64,000 nucleotides of DNA from Pseudomonas sp. BGr12 (GTDB lineage Bacteria > Pseudomonadota > Gammaproteobacteria > Pseudomonadales > Pseudomonadaceae): positions 14,749-78,748 of the forward strand of contig NZ_JALRNF010000031.1 of the NCBI RefSeq assembly GCF_030272895.1, given 5' to 3'. The notes beneath the pieces are model-generated. The model had not been told where the DNA came from and made no database searches. It saw nothing but the letters and a program-made list of their open reading frames with translations. Position numbers and translations under genes: made by a program. Below are positions 14,119-20,622 of the stretch, piece after piece. How positions within the stretch are numbered: position 1 is the stretch's first letter; each line of letters starts with the position of its first letter.

Positions 14119-14195
14119 CGGGGCGTAGCGCAGCCCGGTAGCGCACTTGCATGGGGTGCAAGGGGTCGAGTGTTCGAATCACTCCGTCCCGACCA
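14119..14195 (+). tRNA. tRNA-Pro (anticodon GGG)
   Basis: A 77-nt tRNA. The acceptor arm CGGGGCG pairs with CGTCCCG (one G-U). The D arm is GTAGCGCAGCCCGGTAGCGC and the anticodon stem CTTGC/GCAAG encloses loop ATGGGGT (anticodon GGG at loop positions 3-5). The T arm is GAGTGTTCGAATCACTC, and the gene encodes CCA. It reads CCC/CCT proline codons. The accessory island begins directly downstream, as often happens at tRNA genes. Confidence 0.97.
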
Positions 14196-14277: not shown

Positions 14278-15015
14278 TTATGCTGAAAGGGGAACAAATT
14301 TCCTGAAGTCATTTGGAAGCATTTGTGCGAGTGCATCCCAGCTCAAATCTTCAATGTCGTAAGTCAGCGCAAGCTGATCAAGGACTGTGGATAGGCGTCT
14401 AGGAGCTCCTGCCCCTTTACCGCCACTACCTTTCTTCAGTGCGCCTTGTTCTTCATCAAAGTAAAGCTTGGTTACTAAAGTCATAATCCCAGGGCTGAGA
14501 ACAATCCACTGTCTAGACATCATCTGCTCAAAAACTTCACCTGTTTTGTTTACAGGGGTCCCAAGCACAGCTTTTAAACGGTCAGGGTCATCTCGGTGGG
14601 CTCGATAGGCTAACCAAAGAGGCGCCATTTTTTGACGATATACTTTTCGCCAATTTCCCGGTTCAAAGATCCATAAAGCATGCTCGCCAATCTGGCCTTT
14701 CGTTCCGATAAATTTATGGGCAAATCGTAAAGTTAACCAACTCCAAAAACCTTGGTCGGTTTCGAGAGATTCCTCTTTTAGACCGGCTGCTTTGATTGCT
14801 CGGTCGATCGCTTTCGCCAACTGCAGTTTTGTCTCGAAGGCCTCGGAGGCAAAAAGATCTGCTGGTATTGGACTCCCCCTAAGTTCGTTGAAAGTCGAAC
14901 TCATCAGTAGCTGCTGAGGGATAGGGGTATTAGGTGTCTGACGAATTTGGTCCAACCAAATGCGCATTTGATCAATGCCTTGTGGAGTCAAAGCTAACAA
15001 CTGTAACGTTTCCAT
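14278..15015 (-). CDS. Unknown protein of the GHKL-ATPase operon (C), 245 aa
   Basis: The last gene of a four-gene minus-strand operon. This soluble, mostly helical 245-residue protein starts METLQLLALTPQGIDQMRIWLDQI and has a central Trp-rich block (GFWSWLTLRFAHKFIG, near residue 120). I recognise no family. It begins 1 nt after the stop of the 250-aa gene, so it is translated from the same mRNA. Wobble positions are AT-richer than those of the genes left of the tRNA, which fits horizontal acquisition. Confidence 0.8.
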   Translation of the reverse strand: METLQLLALTPQGIDQMRIWLDQIRQTPNTPIPQQLLMSSTFNELRGSPIPADLFASEAFETKLQLAKAIDRAIKAAGLKEESLETDQGFWSWLTLRFAHKFIGTKGQIGEHALWIFEPGNWRKVYRQKMAPLWLAYRAHRDDPDRLKAVLGTPVNKTGEVFEQMMSRQWIVLSPGIMTLVTKLYFDEEQGALKKGSGGKGAGAPRRLSTVLDQLALTYDIEDLSWDALAQMLPNDFRKFVPLSA

Positions 15016-15016
15016 T

Positions 15017-15769
15017 TTAATCCTCCTGATTTATGAAGTTTGCGAGACGGTTGCGAAGTTTCTTTTCTCTACAGAAGGCTATTGTGGCTTTTTGAGCCCA
15101 GTCGTCTATCTCTTGATGGGTGCTGTTACTTGGTGGAATATATCCGGCCCATCTTTTTCCCAAACTCAGCCAGGTACTAAGGTCTTCCTCGTCATCGGCT
15201 GATCCTTCTTGCTCGTGAGCTAAGTTTATTAAGATTGCCCGGATCACTCCTGGTAGAATGGCGTGTAGTACTGGGCTTGACTTTAAGTCGTTCTTTGATC
15301 CAAGACTGGTGTCTAGTAGCAGTGTTGGGATTTCTCCCATTTCTAACTCCCAGATCCCCCCGCTCAAGTCTTGCATAATTATTGGTAGCAGCGAGCGCTG
15401 AGGTGTATTGCTATCTTCCCGATCTGTGGTATCAACCCCTTCGGCTGTGGCGAGAAGCTGGCAAGAGTCCGGGTCGACAACAAGGATCCGGAAACGAATA
15501 TCGTCAGGGTCGCCCATAGCTGAAATGTCGAAGTTAGAGCTGGCGCCTTCTTCGGTAAAGGCTTGCCCAGCATGACCCCAGCTGTGTCGCAGACGGATTA
15601 CTCTACCACGCTGTGCCTCGACAATCACGGATGCGTCGGGCCTTATGTCATACTCACCTAACCATAGGTGGACATTGCAGATTGAAGAGCATCCATCGAA
15701 GTTTATGCTGATTCTCACATCCTCTTTAAGGATTTTTTCACGACCGGTGAAGTTGAAACGTCGACTCAT
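15017..15769 (-). CDS. Unknown protein of the GHKL-ATPase operon (B), 250 aa
   Basis: This 250-residue protein has a predicted beta-rich N-terminal two-thirds (MSRRFNFTGREKILKEDVRISINF, then LWLGEYDIRPDASVIVEAQRG) and an acidic, helical C-terminus (EQEGSADDEEDLSTWLSLGKRW). I do not recognise the family. The start overlaps the stop of the ATPase gene by 4 bp, so the two products are made together and probably act in one complex. AT-rich codon use. Confidence 0.8.
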   Translation of the reverse strand: MSRRFNFTGREKILKEDVRISINFDGCSSICNVHLWLGEYDIRPDASVIVEAQRGRVIRLRHSWGHAGQAFTEEGASSNFDISAMGDPDDIRFRILVVDPDSCQLLATAEGVDTTDREDSNTPQRSLLPIIMQDLSGGIWELEMGEIPTLLLDTSLGSKNDLKSSPVLHAILPGVIRAILINLAHEQEGSADDEEDLSTWLSLGKRWAGYIPPSNSTHQEIDDWAQKATIAFCREKKLRNRLANFINQED

Positions 15770-17736
15770 TCTACTTCCTCCTCACCTTCCTCTGCGGAAT
15801 TTTCCGGGGAGGTCGATTTTATTTTCATTACTAGGTCACGGTTCAAATCTGCCGATCGAAAAATAATCTTGAATTCTGGGGTTTTAGCTACAACTACTAA
15901 ACTCCCTGCGCTGCCGTGCTCGATCGTAACGTTTTCAGCTGTTACTTGAAATTTGCTGTTTTTGTCAATGCCTTTTTGGGCCGCTTGAAATAAATCGAAA
16001 TCATATTTCGAGTGAGCTTTGAATGGGTTGCGGCCATACAGGTCGTAGGCGGCATGAATTTCGAATCTATAGCCATCTGGGTTAACAAAACCGTCGGGGT
16101 TGCCGGTCAAGTGTACTTCATCTTCAGTTTTTCTAAGGCTCCAAGATCTAGGTTTCGGAGCTGGTATATTGTGCTCCTCTTGAGATGACTCCTTCTTATT
16201 TTCTTTTTTCCGATTGCTTGATCGTTCACTGGCTTCTGGCTGTAGTGAGCCTTCATCCGAGGGTAAAGGAAGTAGTTCAGCTAACAGGCTGTGATCTGGC
16301 GTACCATTTTCGATTGAGAGTTTTTCCAGTAGCCTGTGTGCGCTCTCGCGGACAAAAGGAATCAGTTTGTTAGATGATTTATAGTTTTGCTCTCTGAATT
16401 TGTCGCGAGATGCTTTCCAGTCCGTGTGAGCTGGGCACTCTGAACGTCTGAGCGCATCGGCAATTGCATTTCTCGATACATGTATTAGCGAGGATGTCTC
16501 TGGTGTTTTCCTTCGGGTTGGCTGATTAGGAATGATCAACCCATCTCGGACGTACACAGGGTAGTGTCGCCCAGACTTTTTCATTATTAGGACGTCAAAT
16601 GTGGCATTGGAAGAGCTATTCTGGGATCGCGAGATCGTCATTGGTACTTTGAAATGCACTATTCGACCATGGTCCAATGCAGACTCTATGTCTTGGGGAA
16701 GGAGATTGGTCTTATAGCTTGCCCAGTCATAGTCCATTTGCTCCGAGCCAGATTCATGAGTAACGGTCACCTCCAGTGGCGTTGTCTCATTCAGGCGTAA
16801 CAGGTTGCAAGCAAGCTGAATAGAGTCTTGAAATTGTTCATCTCCAGGTGCCGATTGTTTAAGTGCCTCATAGCTGCTTGAGTCAAAGCGGACAAAGTTG
16901 TCGTTGTCGTTATCTCGCAGCTCGACTACTAAGTCACCCTCGAGGATTGGGATGAAGTACTCTCGAGCAATGACGGCTGCTAAGCGATCAATTGTCAAGT
17001 ATTTTTCATATACCCAAGGAATCACTACGCCTAAGCCAGGCTCATTCTCTCGGGTAAGTCTGAAGTCCTTTTTCAAGCGATTGGTAACGGAGTCGCTGGT
17101 AAATGGGGTTTGTAGTTCCCCTTCATGACGGCTAAACCATCCATCAGGAGTGTATCGAGTCCCATTTACTTCGTGGTGGCGCAGAATGGACTGACCCATG
17201 AGATGCAGCCCAGGTTCAGATGCGCGGCGAGTAACAGCAAAAAAAGAGCGAATACGGCTCGAGCGTGGAATTACTATTTTCCCGACGCCCCAGCTCCCAC
17301 GATCCCCGTCTTTCTTGTTGGATACACCCTCAGCCCTGAAGAAATGATAGAAGTTCCCCCCGGTCTCGGGAGACGCTGAGTCAATTTCTCCCTCCAGCCC
17401 CTTGGTACCGAAATCTTCTATGGCAAGGTATGCGCAATCTTCCGCTTCCCAATTTGGCAAGCTAGATAGGCGGATCTCTTTTGCCGAAAAGTGGGCCTGT
17501 ACGTCTTTACAGAACCAGAAGCTGGTTTCCTGAGCCGCAAGTTTACCCAATGAAAGGACTACCCTGACCGGAGCTTTACCTAGGCGAGCATCTAAAGAGT
17601 TTTGGATTGTCTCGCGAATTAGCGCATGTTCAATCCCCTCGATGGATTGGTCTTGGAAAAACTCATCTTGCATGGGGTCTCGCGCTTTAGCTCCTAACGG
17701 TTGCTTTAGGAAGCTCCACTTCGGCTGCTCGGTCAT
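15766..17736 (-). CDS. GHKL (HSP90/MutL/MORC-like) ATPase
   Basis: A 656-residue protein whose N-terminus carries a Bergerat ATP fold. The N-box is RETIQNSLDA with Glu42 and Asn46. The G1 box DFGTKG has Asp108, Gly110 and Gly113. The G2 loop is GSWGVGK at 147-153. The rest has no nuclease motif that I recognise. A charged linker rich in Glu/Lys/Ser lies at about 515-545, followed by a beta-rich C-terminus ending in an acidic tail. A GAGAGG site precedes the ATG. MutL/MORC-type ATPases are known from R-M-like neighbourhoods with cytosine methylases and Vsr nucleases, as here. AT-rich and probably acquired. Confidence 0.85.
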   Translation of the reverse strand: MTEQPKWSFLKQPLGAKARDPMQDEFFQDQSIEGIEHALIRETIQNSLDARLGKAPVRVVLSLGKLAAQETSFWFCKDVQAHFSAKEIRLSSLPNWEAEDCAYLAIEDFGTKGLEGEIDSASPETGGNFYHFFRAEGVSNKKDGDRGSWGVGKIVIPRSSRIRSFFAVTRRASEPGLHLMGQSILRHHEVNGTRYTPDGWFSRHEGELQTPFTSDSVTNRLKKDFRLTRENEPGLGVVIPWVYEKYLTIDRLAAVIAREYFIPILEGDLVVELRDNDNDNFVRFDSSSYEALKQSAPGDEQFQDSIQLACNLLRLNETTPLEVTVTHESGSEQMDYDWASYKTNLLPQDIESALDHGRIVHFKVPMTISRSQNSSSNATFDVLIMKKSGRHYPVYVRDGLIIPNQPTRRKTPETSSLIHVSRNAIADALRRSECPAHTDWKASRDKFREQNYKSSNKLIPFVRESAHRLLEKLSIENGTPDHSLLAELLPLPSDEGSLQPEASERSSNRKKENKKESSQEEHNIPAPKPRSWSLRKTEDEVHLTGNPDGFVNPDGYRFEIHAAYDLYGRNPFKAHSKYDFDLFQAAQKGIDKNSKFQVTAENVTIEHGSAGSLVVVAKTPEFKIIFRSADLNRDLVMKIKSTSPENSAEEGEEEVE

Positions 17737-17776
17737 CCTGAACCTCTCAAAAGGAAAATTAAAATCGAAAAATCTC

Positions 17777-17998
17777 TTACAGTTTAAAGTCGCCGGACGA
17801 CGCGCCTTCTGCTTCGGAAAAGCGAGACTTAGCTTGGTCCAGTTCTTTCTGCAGAGCCTTAAAAATTTTCTTCACATCCTCCTCTGTGAAGCTGTAGGCG
17901 TTTCGATTGGAAAGGTTTCCGATCAGCCGTATGTCATTCAGGGCTCTGTTTGCTCTCTGCTCGGCAAGGCGTACGAATTTTTCGCGCTTTTCTTCCAT
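17777..17998 (-). CDS. Small protein heading the GHKL-ATPase operon, 73 aa
   Basis: A 73-residue charged helical protein (MEEKREKFVRLAEQRANRALNDIRLIGNLSNRNAYSFTEEDV...). It lies 40 nt upstream of the ATPase on the same strand. It has no signal or membrane segment. I have a general impression of short proteins of this type accompanying larger accessory-system genes, but I do not know a function. Three phased AATATTT boxes lie 30-60 nt before its start. Confidence 0.72.
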   Translation of the reverse strand: MEEKREKFVRLAEQRANRALNDIRLIGNLSNRNAYSFTEEDVKKIFKALQKELDQAKSRFSEAEGASSGDFKL

Positions 17999-18476
17999 TT
18001 TTTTTCTCTAACGTTTCGTGGTTTTCGCAAATATTTAGTAAATATTTAGCCAATATTTGAAGAATGTCAATGGGGTTGTGATGGCTTTTTGCTTTCCTCG
18101 GCTTGGTAGGGCTGCACGTGGGGGGGGCGCGGAATCTTGCGGCCTTTGGAGGGCATTGGGTGAGGGGTTGCGTTGCGCGGCTTGCGCTCGGTGACCGGCA
18201 ATTCGTCGGTTTTCATCCCTCAGCCCATTAGGGTAAGGATGCGCAGGCAAGGGCGACTAGATGCTAAGCTTGCGCTTGGCTCTGCAGGCTCAATTTGTAG
18301 GTATAGGTTGACAGGGGGACAAAACGCGACCGAACTTTCTCGATGCGGTCAATGATTTCACCGAGGATTGGCACCGGATGAGCGTATCGTTCTGCTTGAG
18401 GAGGTAAGGGCTGTCAGTAATAATTGTAGGTGGGGTGGCTCACATTGATTGGCGCTATCATTCGATGAGCTGGGGG
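17999..18476. other. Intergenic region holding the island operon promoter
   Basis: This 478-nt stretch has no supported gene. It contains the three AATATTT boxes near 18030-18058, then GC-rich sequence (18100-18250) unlike the AT-rich operon, and then featureless DNA up to vsr. A short minus-strand frame at 18035-18250 is low-complexity and looks non-coding. The composition break near 18100 could mark a junction between separately acquired segments. Confidence 0.4.
18029..18059 (-). promoter_or_regulatory. Three phased AATATTT boxes upstream of the GHKL operon
   Basis: AATATTT occurs at 18030-18036, 18041-18047 and 18052-18058, exactly 11 bp apart, so all lie on one face of the helix. They sit 32-60 nt upstream of the 73-aa gene start. 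They could be an iterated operator or curved promoter DNA. No repressor gene is recognisable in the island. Confidence 0.5.
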
Positions 18477-18938
18477 CTAAGGATCTTCTTCCGGTGCATC
18501 CAAGTTCGGCCATGAGACAAATTTTTGATTACAATCCCCCAACGTTTCCAGTAGCCAACCCAGATCCGTTTTCGGAGAGCATATCCCGCATTCCCATAGC
18601 TCGAAGACACGCCATCCTTGATGCTGTAGCTCTTGTCGATTTTTTAGGTCTCGCGCGACATTTTGAGCGAATTTGTTCTTCCAAAAATCCTCTCGGGTCT
18701 TAGGTGTGGTTGCAAACCTGCAGCCCGGATGACGGTGCCAGAAGCAGCCATGAACGAAGATACAGACGCGGTGGCGGGCTAGCACCACATCGGGTTTGCC
18801 TGGGAGATTTTTTTGGTGCAAGCGATATCTGAAGCCATGGCGATGCAGAAACCGTCGGACCTTCATTTCCGGGTTAGTATTGCTGCCGCGAATACTGGCC
18901 ATCATGCGAGACCTGATTTCTTTACTGACTATGTCCAT
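18477..18938 (-). CDS. vsr: Vsr-type very-short-patch-repair endonuclease
   Basis: A 153-residue nicking endonuclease of the Vsr family, which cuts beside T:G mismatches left by deamination of 5-methylcytosine. The motif order is complete. SKEIRSRMMASIRGSNTNPE starts at residue 5, the catalytic Asp50 lies in PGKPDVVL, and FVHGCFWHRHPGC carries His63, Cys65, His68 and Cys73. The ATG at 18938 gives the normal length. It overlaps the start region of the divergent cytosine methyltransferase, its expected partner. Confidence 0.93.
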   Translation of the reverse strand: MDIVSKEIRSRMMASIRGSNTNPEMKVRRFLHRHGFRYRLHQKNLPGKPDVVLARHRVCIFVHGCFWHRHPGCRFATTPKTREDFWKNKFAQNVARDLKNRQELQHQGWRVFELWECGICSPKTDLGWLLETLGDCNQKFVSWPNLDAPEEDP

Positions 18939-20622
18939 GACTGAACCCCAGATGAATTTGCCCCTTGGGCAAGACAAAGCTTTTGAAAGCGATGTGATGC
19001 TTTCTAAGCCTATCCAGATTGTCGATCTTTTCGCAGGCCCTGGGGGGCTTGGTGAAGGCTTTGCCTCCTCGGGGAAAGGAACTCGGTACGAAATCGTGGT
19101 TTCTGCTGAGATGGATCCCGTGGCTAGAGAGACTCTGCGGCTGAGAGCGTTTTACAGGCTTCTCAAGCTGAAAAAACCGGAGCGCCTAGTGGATTACTAT
19201 GCTTTCTGCAACGGCCAGGCTGAAACTCCTTATACGGAAGGAAGCAAAGCACAATGGCATGAAGCCGATGCAGAGGCTCGTTGCATAACGCTGGGGTCTG
19301 AAAAGGGTGACGCAGAGCTGGATGAAATTCTCGATCAGAGGCTTGATCGCACGCGGCCTTGGGTGCTCATCGGCGGGCCGCCGTGCCAGGCATACTCGAT
19401 TGTCGGCCGGGCACGCAACCAAGCCAAGGCAGATTACAGCCCAGAGAATGACCATCGCCATTTTCTCTACAAGGAGTATCTCAGGATCATCAAAGAGAGA
19501 AAGCCAACCGTTTTCGTAATGGAAAACGTCAAGGGCATTCTTTCTTCGAAGGTGGGTGGCGAAAGCATTTTCTCCCAGATACTCCAAGATCTTACGGACC
19601 CTAACAAGGCGCTCGGCGACCCTGAGCCTGGCATCAAGTATCGCGTCTGCTCCTTGGTTACCGGGCAGTCCTACGGTCCGGGGGAGGACGTCGATGAGGT
19701 TGATCCTCGGGGCTTCATCATCAAGGCAGAGGATCATGGTATCCCTCAAGCTCGGCATCGAGTGATTCTGCTCGGTATCGCCCTGGACGAAGAAGGGAAC
19801 ATTCCTGAGCATGGCTGGATCCCACTGATTCAGGATCAGGTGAGTGTGAAACAGGTCTTGGAAGAGCTTCCCAAGCTGAGAAGTCGTTTGACCAAGCAAG
19901 CTGATGGAAATGAAGCCTGGTACACGGAGGTGGCCAATCAGCTCGACGACTTGAGGGCTGAGGTCGATAGCCGAACCGAGCCCAAGCTTGCATTCGAGAT
20001 GGACATAATTCGCAGCGGTTTGTTGTCGGCGCCCGTTGATGTAGGTGCTCTCCGTGTACCTCGTCGAAAGGGTGACGGTTGCACTGGTGATGTGGCCCTC
20101 GACAGGTGGTACCGCGATGACAGTCTTGAATACTGGTTGAACCATGATGCGCGCGGCCATATGCCATCAGACTTGCGTAGGTACATGTTCGCAAGCGTCT
20201 ACGCCAGAGCCTACAAGACATCGCCAAAAGGGCATCAGCAATTCACGCTCTCAGGGCTTGCGCCAGCGCACAAGAACTGGGAAAGCGGTAAGTTCAGTGA
20301 CCGATTCAGGGTTCAATTGGAACACCTGCCGGCTACGACGATTACCAGCCACATTTCCAAGGACGGGCACTACTTTATTCACTATGACCCAAAGCAGTGC
20401 CGTAGTCTGACTGTTCGTGAAGCTGCTCGGCTTCAGACGTTCCCGGACAACTATTTCTTCCAGGGAAACAGGACTCAGCAATTTCACCAGGTAGGTAACG
20501 CAGTTCCACCACTGTTGGCACACAAGATTGCTTCGGTGGTACATGCTGTGATTTGCGAAAAGACCTTGGGTGCTGAAGGCTATCAACGTGCAGAAGTCGA
20601 GGCTGAGAGGGCTCTTGGCTGA
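18931..20622 (+). CDS. dcm: DNA (cytosine-5) methyltransferase
   Basis: A C5-methyltransferase of about 563 residues. Motif I is VDLFAGPGG (31-39). Motif IV has the catalytic Cys152 in GGPPCQAYS. Motif VI is ENV (198-200) and motif VIII QARHR (273-277). A variable target-recognition region follows, then motif IX (VREAARLQTFPD) and motif X (QVGNAVPP, from 520). The start is uncertain: ATG codons at 18931, 18937, 18952 and 18997 all lack a clear ribosome site. The first three crowd against the divergent vsr start. It probably methylates a specific site and protects the host. The target is not readable. Confidence 0.92.
   Translation: MSMTEPQMNLPLGQDKAFESDVMLSKPIQIVDLFAGPGGLGEGFASSGKGTRYEIVVSAEMDPVARETLRLRAFYRLLKLKKPERLVDYYAFCNGQAETPYTEGSKAQWHEADAEARCITLGSEKGDAELDEILDQRLDRTRPWVLIGGPPCQAYSIVGRARNQAKADYSPENDHRHFLYKEYLRIIKERKPTVFVMENVKGILSSKVGGESIFSQILQDLTDPNKALGDPEPGIKYRVCSLVTGQSYGPGEDVDEVDPRGFIIKAEDHGIPQARHRVILLGIALDEEGNIPEHGWIPLIQDQVSVKQVLEELPKLRSRLTKQADGNEAWYTEVANQLDDLRAEVDSRTEPKLAFEMDIIRSGLLSAPVDVGALRVPRRKGDGCTGDVALDRWYRDDSLEYWLNHDARGHMPSDLRRYMFASVYARAYKTSPKGHQQFTLSGLAPAHKNWESGKFSDRFRVQLEHLPATTITSHISKDGHYFIHYDPKQCRSLTVREAARLQTFPDNYFFQGNRTQQFHQVGNAVPPLLAHKIASVVHAVICEKTLGAEGYQRAEVEAERALG

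Follow-up and report, generated by a model that had tools for sequence, protein, structure and literature searches.

A proposed interchangeable effector module built on a GHKL ATPase beside dcm and vsr in a Pseudomonas island

An island downstream of a tRNA-Pro gene in Pseudomonas sp. BGr12 (contig NZ_JALRNF010000031.1) holds six intact genes at positions 14278-20622 of the 64,000-nucleotide stretch analysed here (the window). Five of them (C, B, A, S and vsr) are minus-strand genes, whereas dcm is read from the plus strand. On balance, the island is probably a 5-methylcytosine (5mC) defence locus of restriction-modification (R-M)-like type, in which the S-A-B-C operon serves as an interchangeable effector module in place of MzaBCDE. 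The A-B-C trio is likely an unstudied defence effector without a recognisable DNA-cutting enzyme. The genes are intact, A, B and C co-evolve, the trio is linked to dcm and vsr, it exchanges with Mza genes beside the same dcm, and none of its proteins is recognised as a nuclease.

14119-14195, plus strand: tRNA-Pro(ggg), called by ARAGORN; left border of the island
14278-15015, minus strand: C protein, 245 aa, all-helical; distant relative of PDC-M33C / DUF6339
15017-15769, minus strand: B protein, 250 aa, Ig-like beta-sandwich with C-terminal helices; distant relative of PDC-M33B
15766-17736, minus strand: A protein, 656 aa GHKL ATPase, PDC-M33A-like (PADLOC PDC-M33A, 97 bits)
17777-17998, minus strand: S protein, 73 aa, small operon leader
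18477-18938, minus strand: vsr, very-short-patch repair endonuclease, 153 aa (PF03852, TIGR00632, PADLOC Vsr)
18904 (or 18931/18937)-20622, plus strand: dcm, C5-cytosine DNA methyltransferase, at most 572 aa (PF00145; DrmMII-like)

Module exchange and genomic linkage of the trio

The subfamily of the window Dcm is present at E 1e-60 or better in 19 of 398 Pseudomonadaceae genomes (source genome counted), and the 18 dcm loci other than that of the window were compared. MzaB, C, D and E flank dcm in 14 of the 18 (in L160 the compared sequence ends within MzaE), whereas one (L149) has S-A-B-C beside dcm. The other three (L144, L145 and L150) encode homologues of MzaC and MzaD together with a GHKL gene that matches the A profile (1e-14 to 1e-17); an MzaB query finds no gene in these Mza-like cassettes, which are possible Mza/A-B-C hybrids. 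A vsr gene accompanies dcm in 17 of the 18 loci (not L160), and none combines B or C with an Mza gene. PADLOC names were checked in L146 (MzaB-E), L151 and L144 (MzaC) and L145 (MzaD, PDC-M33A), with the other loci assigned by similarity to L146. In a dcm tree of 43 rows, the window gene is sister to that of L144 (84% identity) and L035, a Pseudomonas songnenensis record, is sister to L150, with a minimum of six two-state changes (quick tree, Shimodaira-Hasegawa-like approximate likelihood ratio test, SH-aLRT, only). These sister pairs indicate that A-B-C and Mza-type modules have replaced one another beside almost the same methylase, so that A-B-C occupies the position of a restriction module. 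Mza is reportedly a known defence module, which makes this exchange the best argument for A-B-C as an effector. The A family itself is present in 2 of the 398 Pseudomonadaceae genomes (source genome counted).

Protein searches returned 447 rows for A (best 120 listed), 34 for B and 37 for C, the window's own protein included in each. A species-genome collection was scanned with the A alignment (not B or C), and the best 80 of 152 relatives, one viral contig and the window gave 82 loci, in which partner genes were scored by six-frame profile searches on contigs that are often short and unevenly flanked. Of the partner genes, B was the most frequent (71 of these 82 loci), followed by C (68), dcm (29), vsr (23) and S (14). 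Where at least 1.7 kb follows A (69 loci, window excluded), B is present in 62, C in 59 and the pair together in 59. All misses are confined to one 17-row planctomycete clade, in which B occurs in 7 and C in 4 of 14 testable loci; outside this clade, B and C both adjoin A in 55/55 testable loci. Pairwise distances are correlated at 0.93 for A-B, 0.87 for A-C and 0.88 for B-C. A-B-C is thus a real, co-evolving unit, with loci in Proteobacteria, Chloroflexi, Gemmatimonadetes, actinobacteria, Bacteroidota, Planctomycetes, Verrucomicrobia, Nitrospirae and others.

Two side observations concern the composition of these loci. Seven planctomycete loci (L048, L058, L061, L070, L082, L083 and L086) encode an A-type GHKL ATPase without B and C, and no dcm was found in them. 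Directly after C, a gammaproteobacterial and an actinobacterial metagenome-assembled genome (MAG) share a conserved three-gene module (L054:13382-18941 and L074:6858-12582), encoding a ~980 aa HSP70-like protein with HEPN_Swt1, a ~400 aa UvrD-like helicase and a protein of ~475-525 aa (Pfam on L054 only).

A-B-C co-occurs with dcm and vsr well beyond background, the background being 28 relatives only, its conversion to a rate our own and the counts phylogenetically dependent. The sequence-only reading of this DNA had named a lack of such co-occurrence beforehand as one of two outcomes that would refute it, and it came through. A fair count is possible at 33 loci flanked by 5 kb in each direction (window not included): dcm lies within 5 kb in 16, and 13 of those also have vsr. 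When the loci are split by the tree after counting, dcm is near A in 0/9 planctomycete loci, 0/5 loci of a 24-row clade and 16/19 elsewhere. B and C are present in 24/24 rows of the latter clade, whose members are mostly deltaproteobacterial, Nitrospira/Nitrospina-type and gammaproteobacterial MAGs. The three exceptions outside both clades are L038, L051 and L093, the last with dcm ~7.5 kb upstream, behind an Mza cassette. On the A tree (85 rows, quick method), dcm-positive loci occupy most branches, with at least five state changes among 45 scored loci, a scoring biased towards dcm because short contigs were counted only when dcm was seen. Besides the window, vsr is present in 22 of 28 dcm-positive loci; dcm without a vsr in sight occurs in L054, L074, L093, L036 and L060, and A-B-C occurs without Vsr in many loci. 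Contiguous arrangements, either A-B-C-dcm(-vsr) or dcm-A-B-C, recur across distant phyla (L037, L039, L040, L042, L054, L074 and L092).

Gene products and the island border

The gene content and layout read from the letters alone were borne out in full: six genes, divergent vsr and dcm, an ATPase with intact N-box, G1 and G2, and the reported spacing. A and B overlap by 4 nt, a 1-nt gap separates B from C and 40 nt separate S from A, while vsr and dcm stand head to head, abutting or overlapping. The Vsr domain scores above cut-off with PF03852 and TIGR00632 (139 bits). Dcm is a 5mC methyltransferase by PF00145 and TIGR00675, with DrmMII as its top PADLOC model (301 bits) and the motifs DLFAGPGG, GGPPCQ, MENV, QARHR and GNAVPP. 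The A protein has the GHKL N-box RETIQNSLDA, G1 EDFGTKGL and G2 GSWGVGK, and its core residues E42, N46, D108, G113, G147, G150 and G152 are invariant in 40/40 aligned sequences, as is an ExxxH motif (E433-H437). The sole family match of A is to PADLOC PDC-M33A (97.2 bits, best over residues 37-275).

Scans with Pfam, NCBIfam and PADLOC gave nothing convincing for B, C and S and recognised no restriction enzyme among the six window proteins, in agreement with the sequence-only reading, which had listed no classical restriction enzyme. Vsr is the sole recognised nuclease family of the six genes. The reading was also to fall if B or C belonged to housekeeping families, and neither the window proteins nor distant members matched any. 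The AlphaFold2 prediction of C is compact and all-helical (predicted local distance difference test, pLDDT, 94.1; predicted template modelling score, pTM, 0.90), and that of B (pLDDT 90) combines a beta-sandwich with C-terminal helices. Foldseek finds no match for either predicted fold in the PDB at E 0.001, and no significant nuclease match is among the fold matches of B and C. W91, R127, R207, Q214 and D220, the polar positions conserved in C, match no nuclease signature known to us. The control of an EcoRII-C search of the source genome was itself silent.

The tRNA-Pro gene forms the left border of the island. Homology to genus relatives stops at 14195, the last base of the tRNA, in 21 of 24 tRNA-Pro loci; in the remaining ones it extends to 14199 (two loci) or 14213 (one locus). 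GC content is 0.46-0.54 over 14-21 kb, against 0.53-0.69 at 8-14 kb and 0.58-0.67 at 21-28 kb. The right border was sought as a second copy of the tRNA 3' end within the window, and none was found. The same-species genome G017 lacks A. In 10 of 24 relatives the tRNA 3' end recurs as an extra copy of 47-51 nt, ~13-64 kb downstream on the contig of the tRNA (read from search rows), and in G009 and G012 a PF00145 gene lies ~13-15 kb downstream of tRNA-Pro. Because of these extra copies and PF00145 genes, the tRNA-Pro site looks like an island hotspot.

Proposed action and competing explanations

DNA marking by Dcm and T:G repair by Vsr are established family functions. In the proposed mechanism, Dcm would mark host DNA and Vsr would repair T:G mismatches arising by deamination of marked cytosines. 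The A protein, as a MutL/MORC-type GHKL ATPase, would dimerise on ATP binding and close as a clamp around unmarked DNA, with the Ig-like sandwich protein B and the all-helical protein C as obligate partners joining A to its target or output, and S as a putative accessory or regulatory protein. An ATP-dependent clamp effector is favoured since the conserved residues of C carry no known nuclease signature, Vsr is the only recognised nuclease and A-B-C often occurs without Vsr; where dcm is present, the favoured clamp would discriminate by the Dcm mark. The sequence-only reading had cast the ATPase and its two partners as an effector that attacks unmethylated DNA. The effector role gains from the exchange with MzaBCDE beside the same dcm, while an attack on DNA finds no support in three proteins without a recognised nuclease. 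C or A may yet hide a nuclease, although the effector perhaps acts without cleavage. More specifically, and tentatively, A-B-C may restrict without cutting, with A as a MORC-like, ATP-driven clamp and B and C as its two dedicated partners, and so entrap or compact incoming DNA lacking 5mC. If so, the trio would be a nuclease-free counterpart of Mza that can take its place next to the same methylase, and its action in bacteria would functionally resemble MORC silencing in eukaryotes.

Several observations weigh against an effector guided by methylation. The two dcm-less clades argue most strongly against the mark being needed everywhere: in 14/14 of their fairly counted loci (9 planctomycete and 5 others), A is present and no dcm lies within 5 kb. 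In one of the two, B and C are never missing. Dependence on the methyl mark therefore cannot be general, which limits the reading first made from the letters alone. Co-variation of Dcm with A is weak (r 0.30; 0.21 after dropping L033, L034, L035 and L046). The planctomycete loci L068, L072 and L073 have B without C, and no dcm was found in them. Other effectors also stand beside the trio: an EcoRII-C enzyme in L043 (tested) and, judged by similarity, in L046 and L107, a HATPase_c_3 protein that PADLOC assigns to REase_II in L094 (tested) and, judged by similarity, in L100 and L103, and MzaBCDE in Arthrobacter L093, where dcm, MzaB-E, A, B and C all run in one direction. The literature searched reports no activity of the window locus or of PDC-M33, and two other PADLOC candidates tested in their native host had no activity according to the excerpted text of PMC12409345.

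A recognised restriction component in the loci just named would make A-B-C an accessory there. More broadly, the trio could be an accessory or backup, for example an abortive-infection arm, that rides with a 5mC R-M system and acts when restriction fails, which is the best placed of the alternatives and yet unlikely. The EcoRII-C, REase_II-type GHKL and MzaB-E genes fit such a role, as do PDC-M33 relatives that adjoin an EcoRII-C enzyme and a gene annotated as Shedu (L120) or an AIPR gene (L118). It is countered by the absence of a restriction enzyme among the scanned neighbours in the window, L033, L044 and L062 (some neighbours scanned), and by the 18 Pseudomonadaceae loci, in none of which B or C accompanies an Mza gene.

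Somewhat less probable still is an independent system for defence or DNA conflict that detects incoming DNA unaided, its linkage to dcm and vsr reflecting defence-island clustering. The two clades without nearby dcm, the loose A-Dcm co-variation and the further conserved HEPN/HSP70-helicase module of L054 and L074 would be expected of such a system, but the contiguous A-B-C and dcm arrangements recurring in distant phyla and the nearby dcm in 16 of the 19 fairly counted loci elsewhere in the tree would not. It is very improbable that A-B-C serves repair rather than defence, as a dedicated MutL-like partner of Vsr where 5mC has been deaminated: MutL interacts functionally with Vsr (excerpt of PMC2292703) and vsr is frequent in dcm-positive loci (the 22 of 28 above), but the scored part of the 24-row clade has A-B-C without vsr or dcm, five loci have dcm without a seen vsr beside A-B-C, and 17 of the 18 Pseudomonadaceae loci have the same dcm without A-B-C, 16 of those 17 with vsr.

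Comparison with known systems

The window trio already has known distant kin in PDC-M33, a PADLOC candidate system of A, B and C with the same gene order. PDC-M33A and the window A are homologous GHKL ATPases (hhalign probability 100% over 579 columns). The B and C proteins appear to be linked by weak but specific profile matches, at probabilities of 79% (E 1.5e-5, 91 columns) for PDC-M33B and 72% (E 3.4e-5, 159 columns) for PDC-M33C, each a single comparison with only six reference sequences, while wrong pairings gave E 0.11-0.7. B and C of the window escape the PDC-M33 models, with no PADLOC match at E 0.1, as do B and C of L054, L042 and L105, and the window trio forms a separate deep clade. 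These profile matches therefore suggest that it is a divergent sister of the candidate system. The proposal that B and C are new components thus survives in that they escape the PADLOC models, and gives way in that their distant relatives are PDC-M33B and PDC-M33C, the latter with relatives matching DUF6339.

PADLOC calls PDC-M33 A and B in the Enterococcus locus L118 (C unmatched), A, B and C in the Arthrobacter locus L120, and B and C in the Deinococcus plasmid locus L119 (two tested). The C proteins of L119 and L120 are DUF6339, with that of L118 under cut-off; two relatives of the window C bear a precomputed DUF6339 label, which a fresh scan of one (P0168) did not return. An S homologue directly precedes A in L119 (6699-6929, E 2.8e-27) and L120 (6750-6977, E 1.3e-20), and both loci have dcm/vsr neighbours, as in the window. 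A literature search on DUF6339 and PDC-M33 gave nothing relevant, and the PDC systems of PADLOC are described as unpublished (excerpt of PMC11811056).

DISARM class 2 consists of drmMII with drmA, drmB and drmC. Membership of the window locus was rejected: Dcm matches DrmMII best, but the other five proteins match no Drm model. Type II 5mC R-M systems with Vsr (EcoRII-like) share Dcm and Vsr with the window, and some A-B-C loci add an EcoRII-C enzyme; they differ in that the six window proteins include no recognised restriction endonuclease. Mza has in common with the window the dcm subfamily, usually the same vsr and a GHKL ATPase at its core, but by its MzaB, C, D and E genes the window locus does not belong to it.

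Finally, Iyer, Abhiman and Aravind (2008; PMC2292703, excerpt) described the paraMORC1-5 GHKL ATPases as neighbours of DNA methylases and Vsr in R-M gene clusters, which agrees with what the sequence-only reading said of MutL/MORC-like ATPases. Among the paraMORC families, paraMORC2 shares with A an R-M-like setting that includes 5mC methylases and Vsr; the excerpt places it mainly in cyanobacteria and Gram-positives, describes no B or C partner and gives it an ExxxH motif. Because ExxxH is invariant in A, and it is also found at a comparable place in L118-L121, the window ATPase is, as compared by motif, probably paraMORC2-like.

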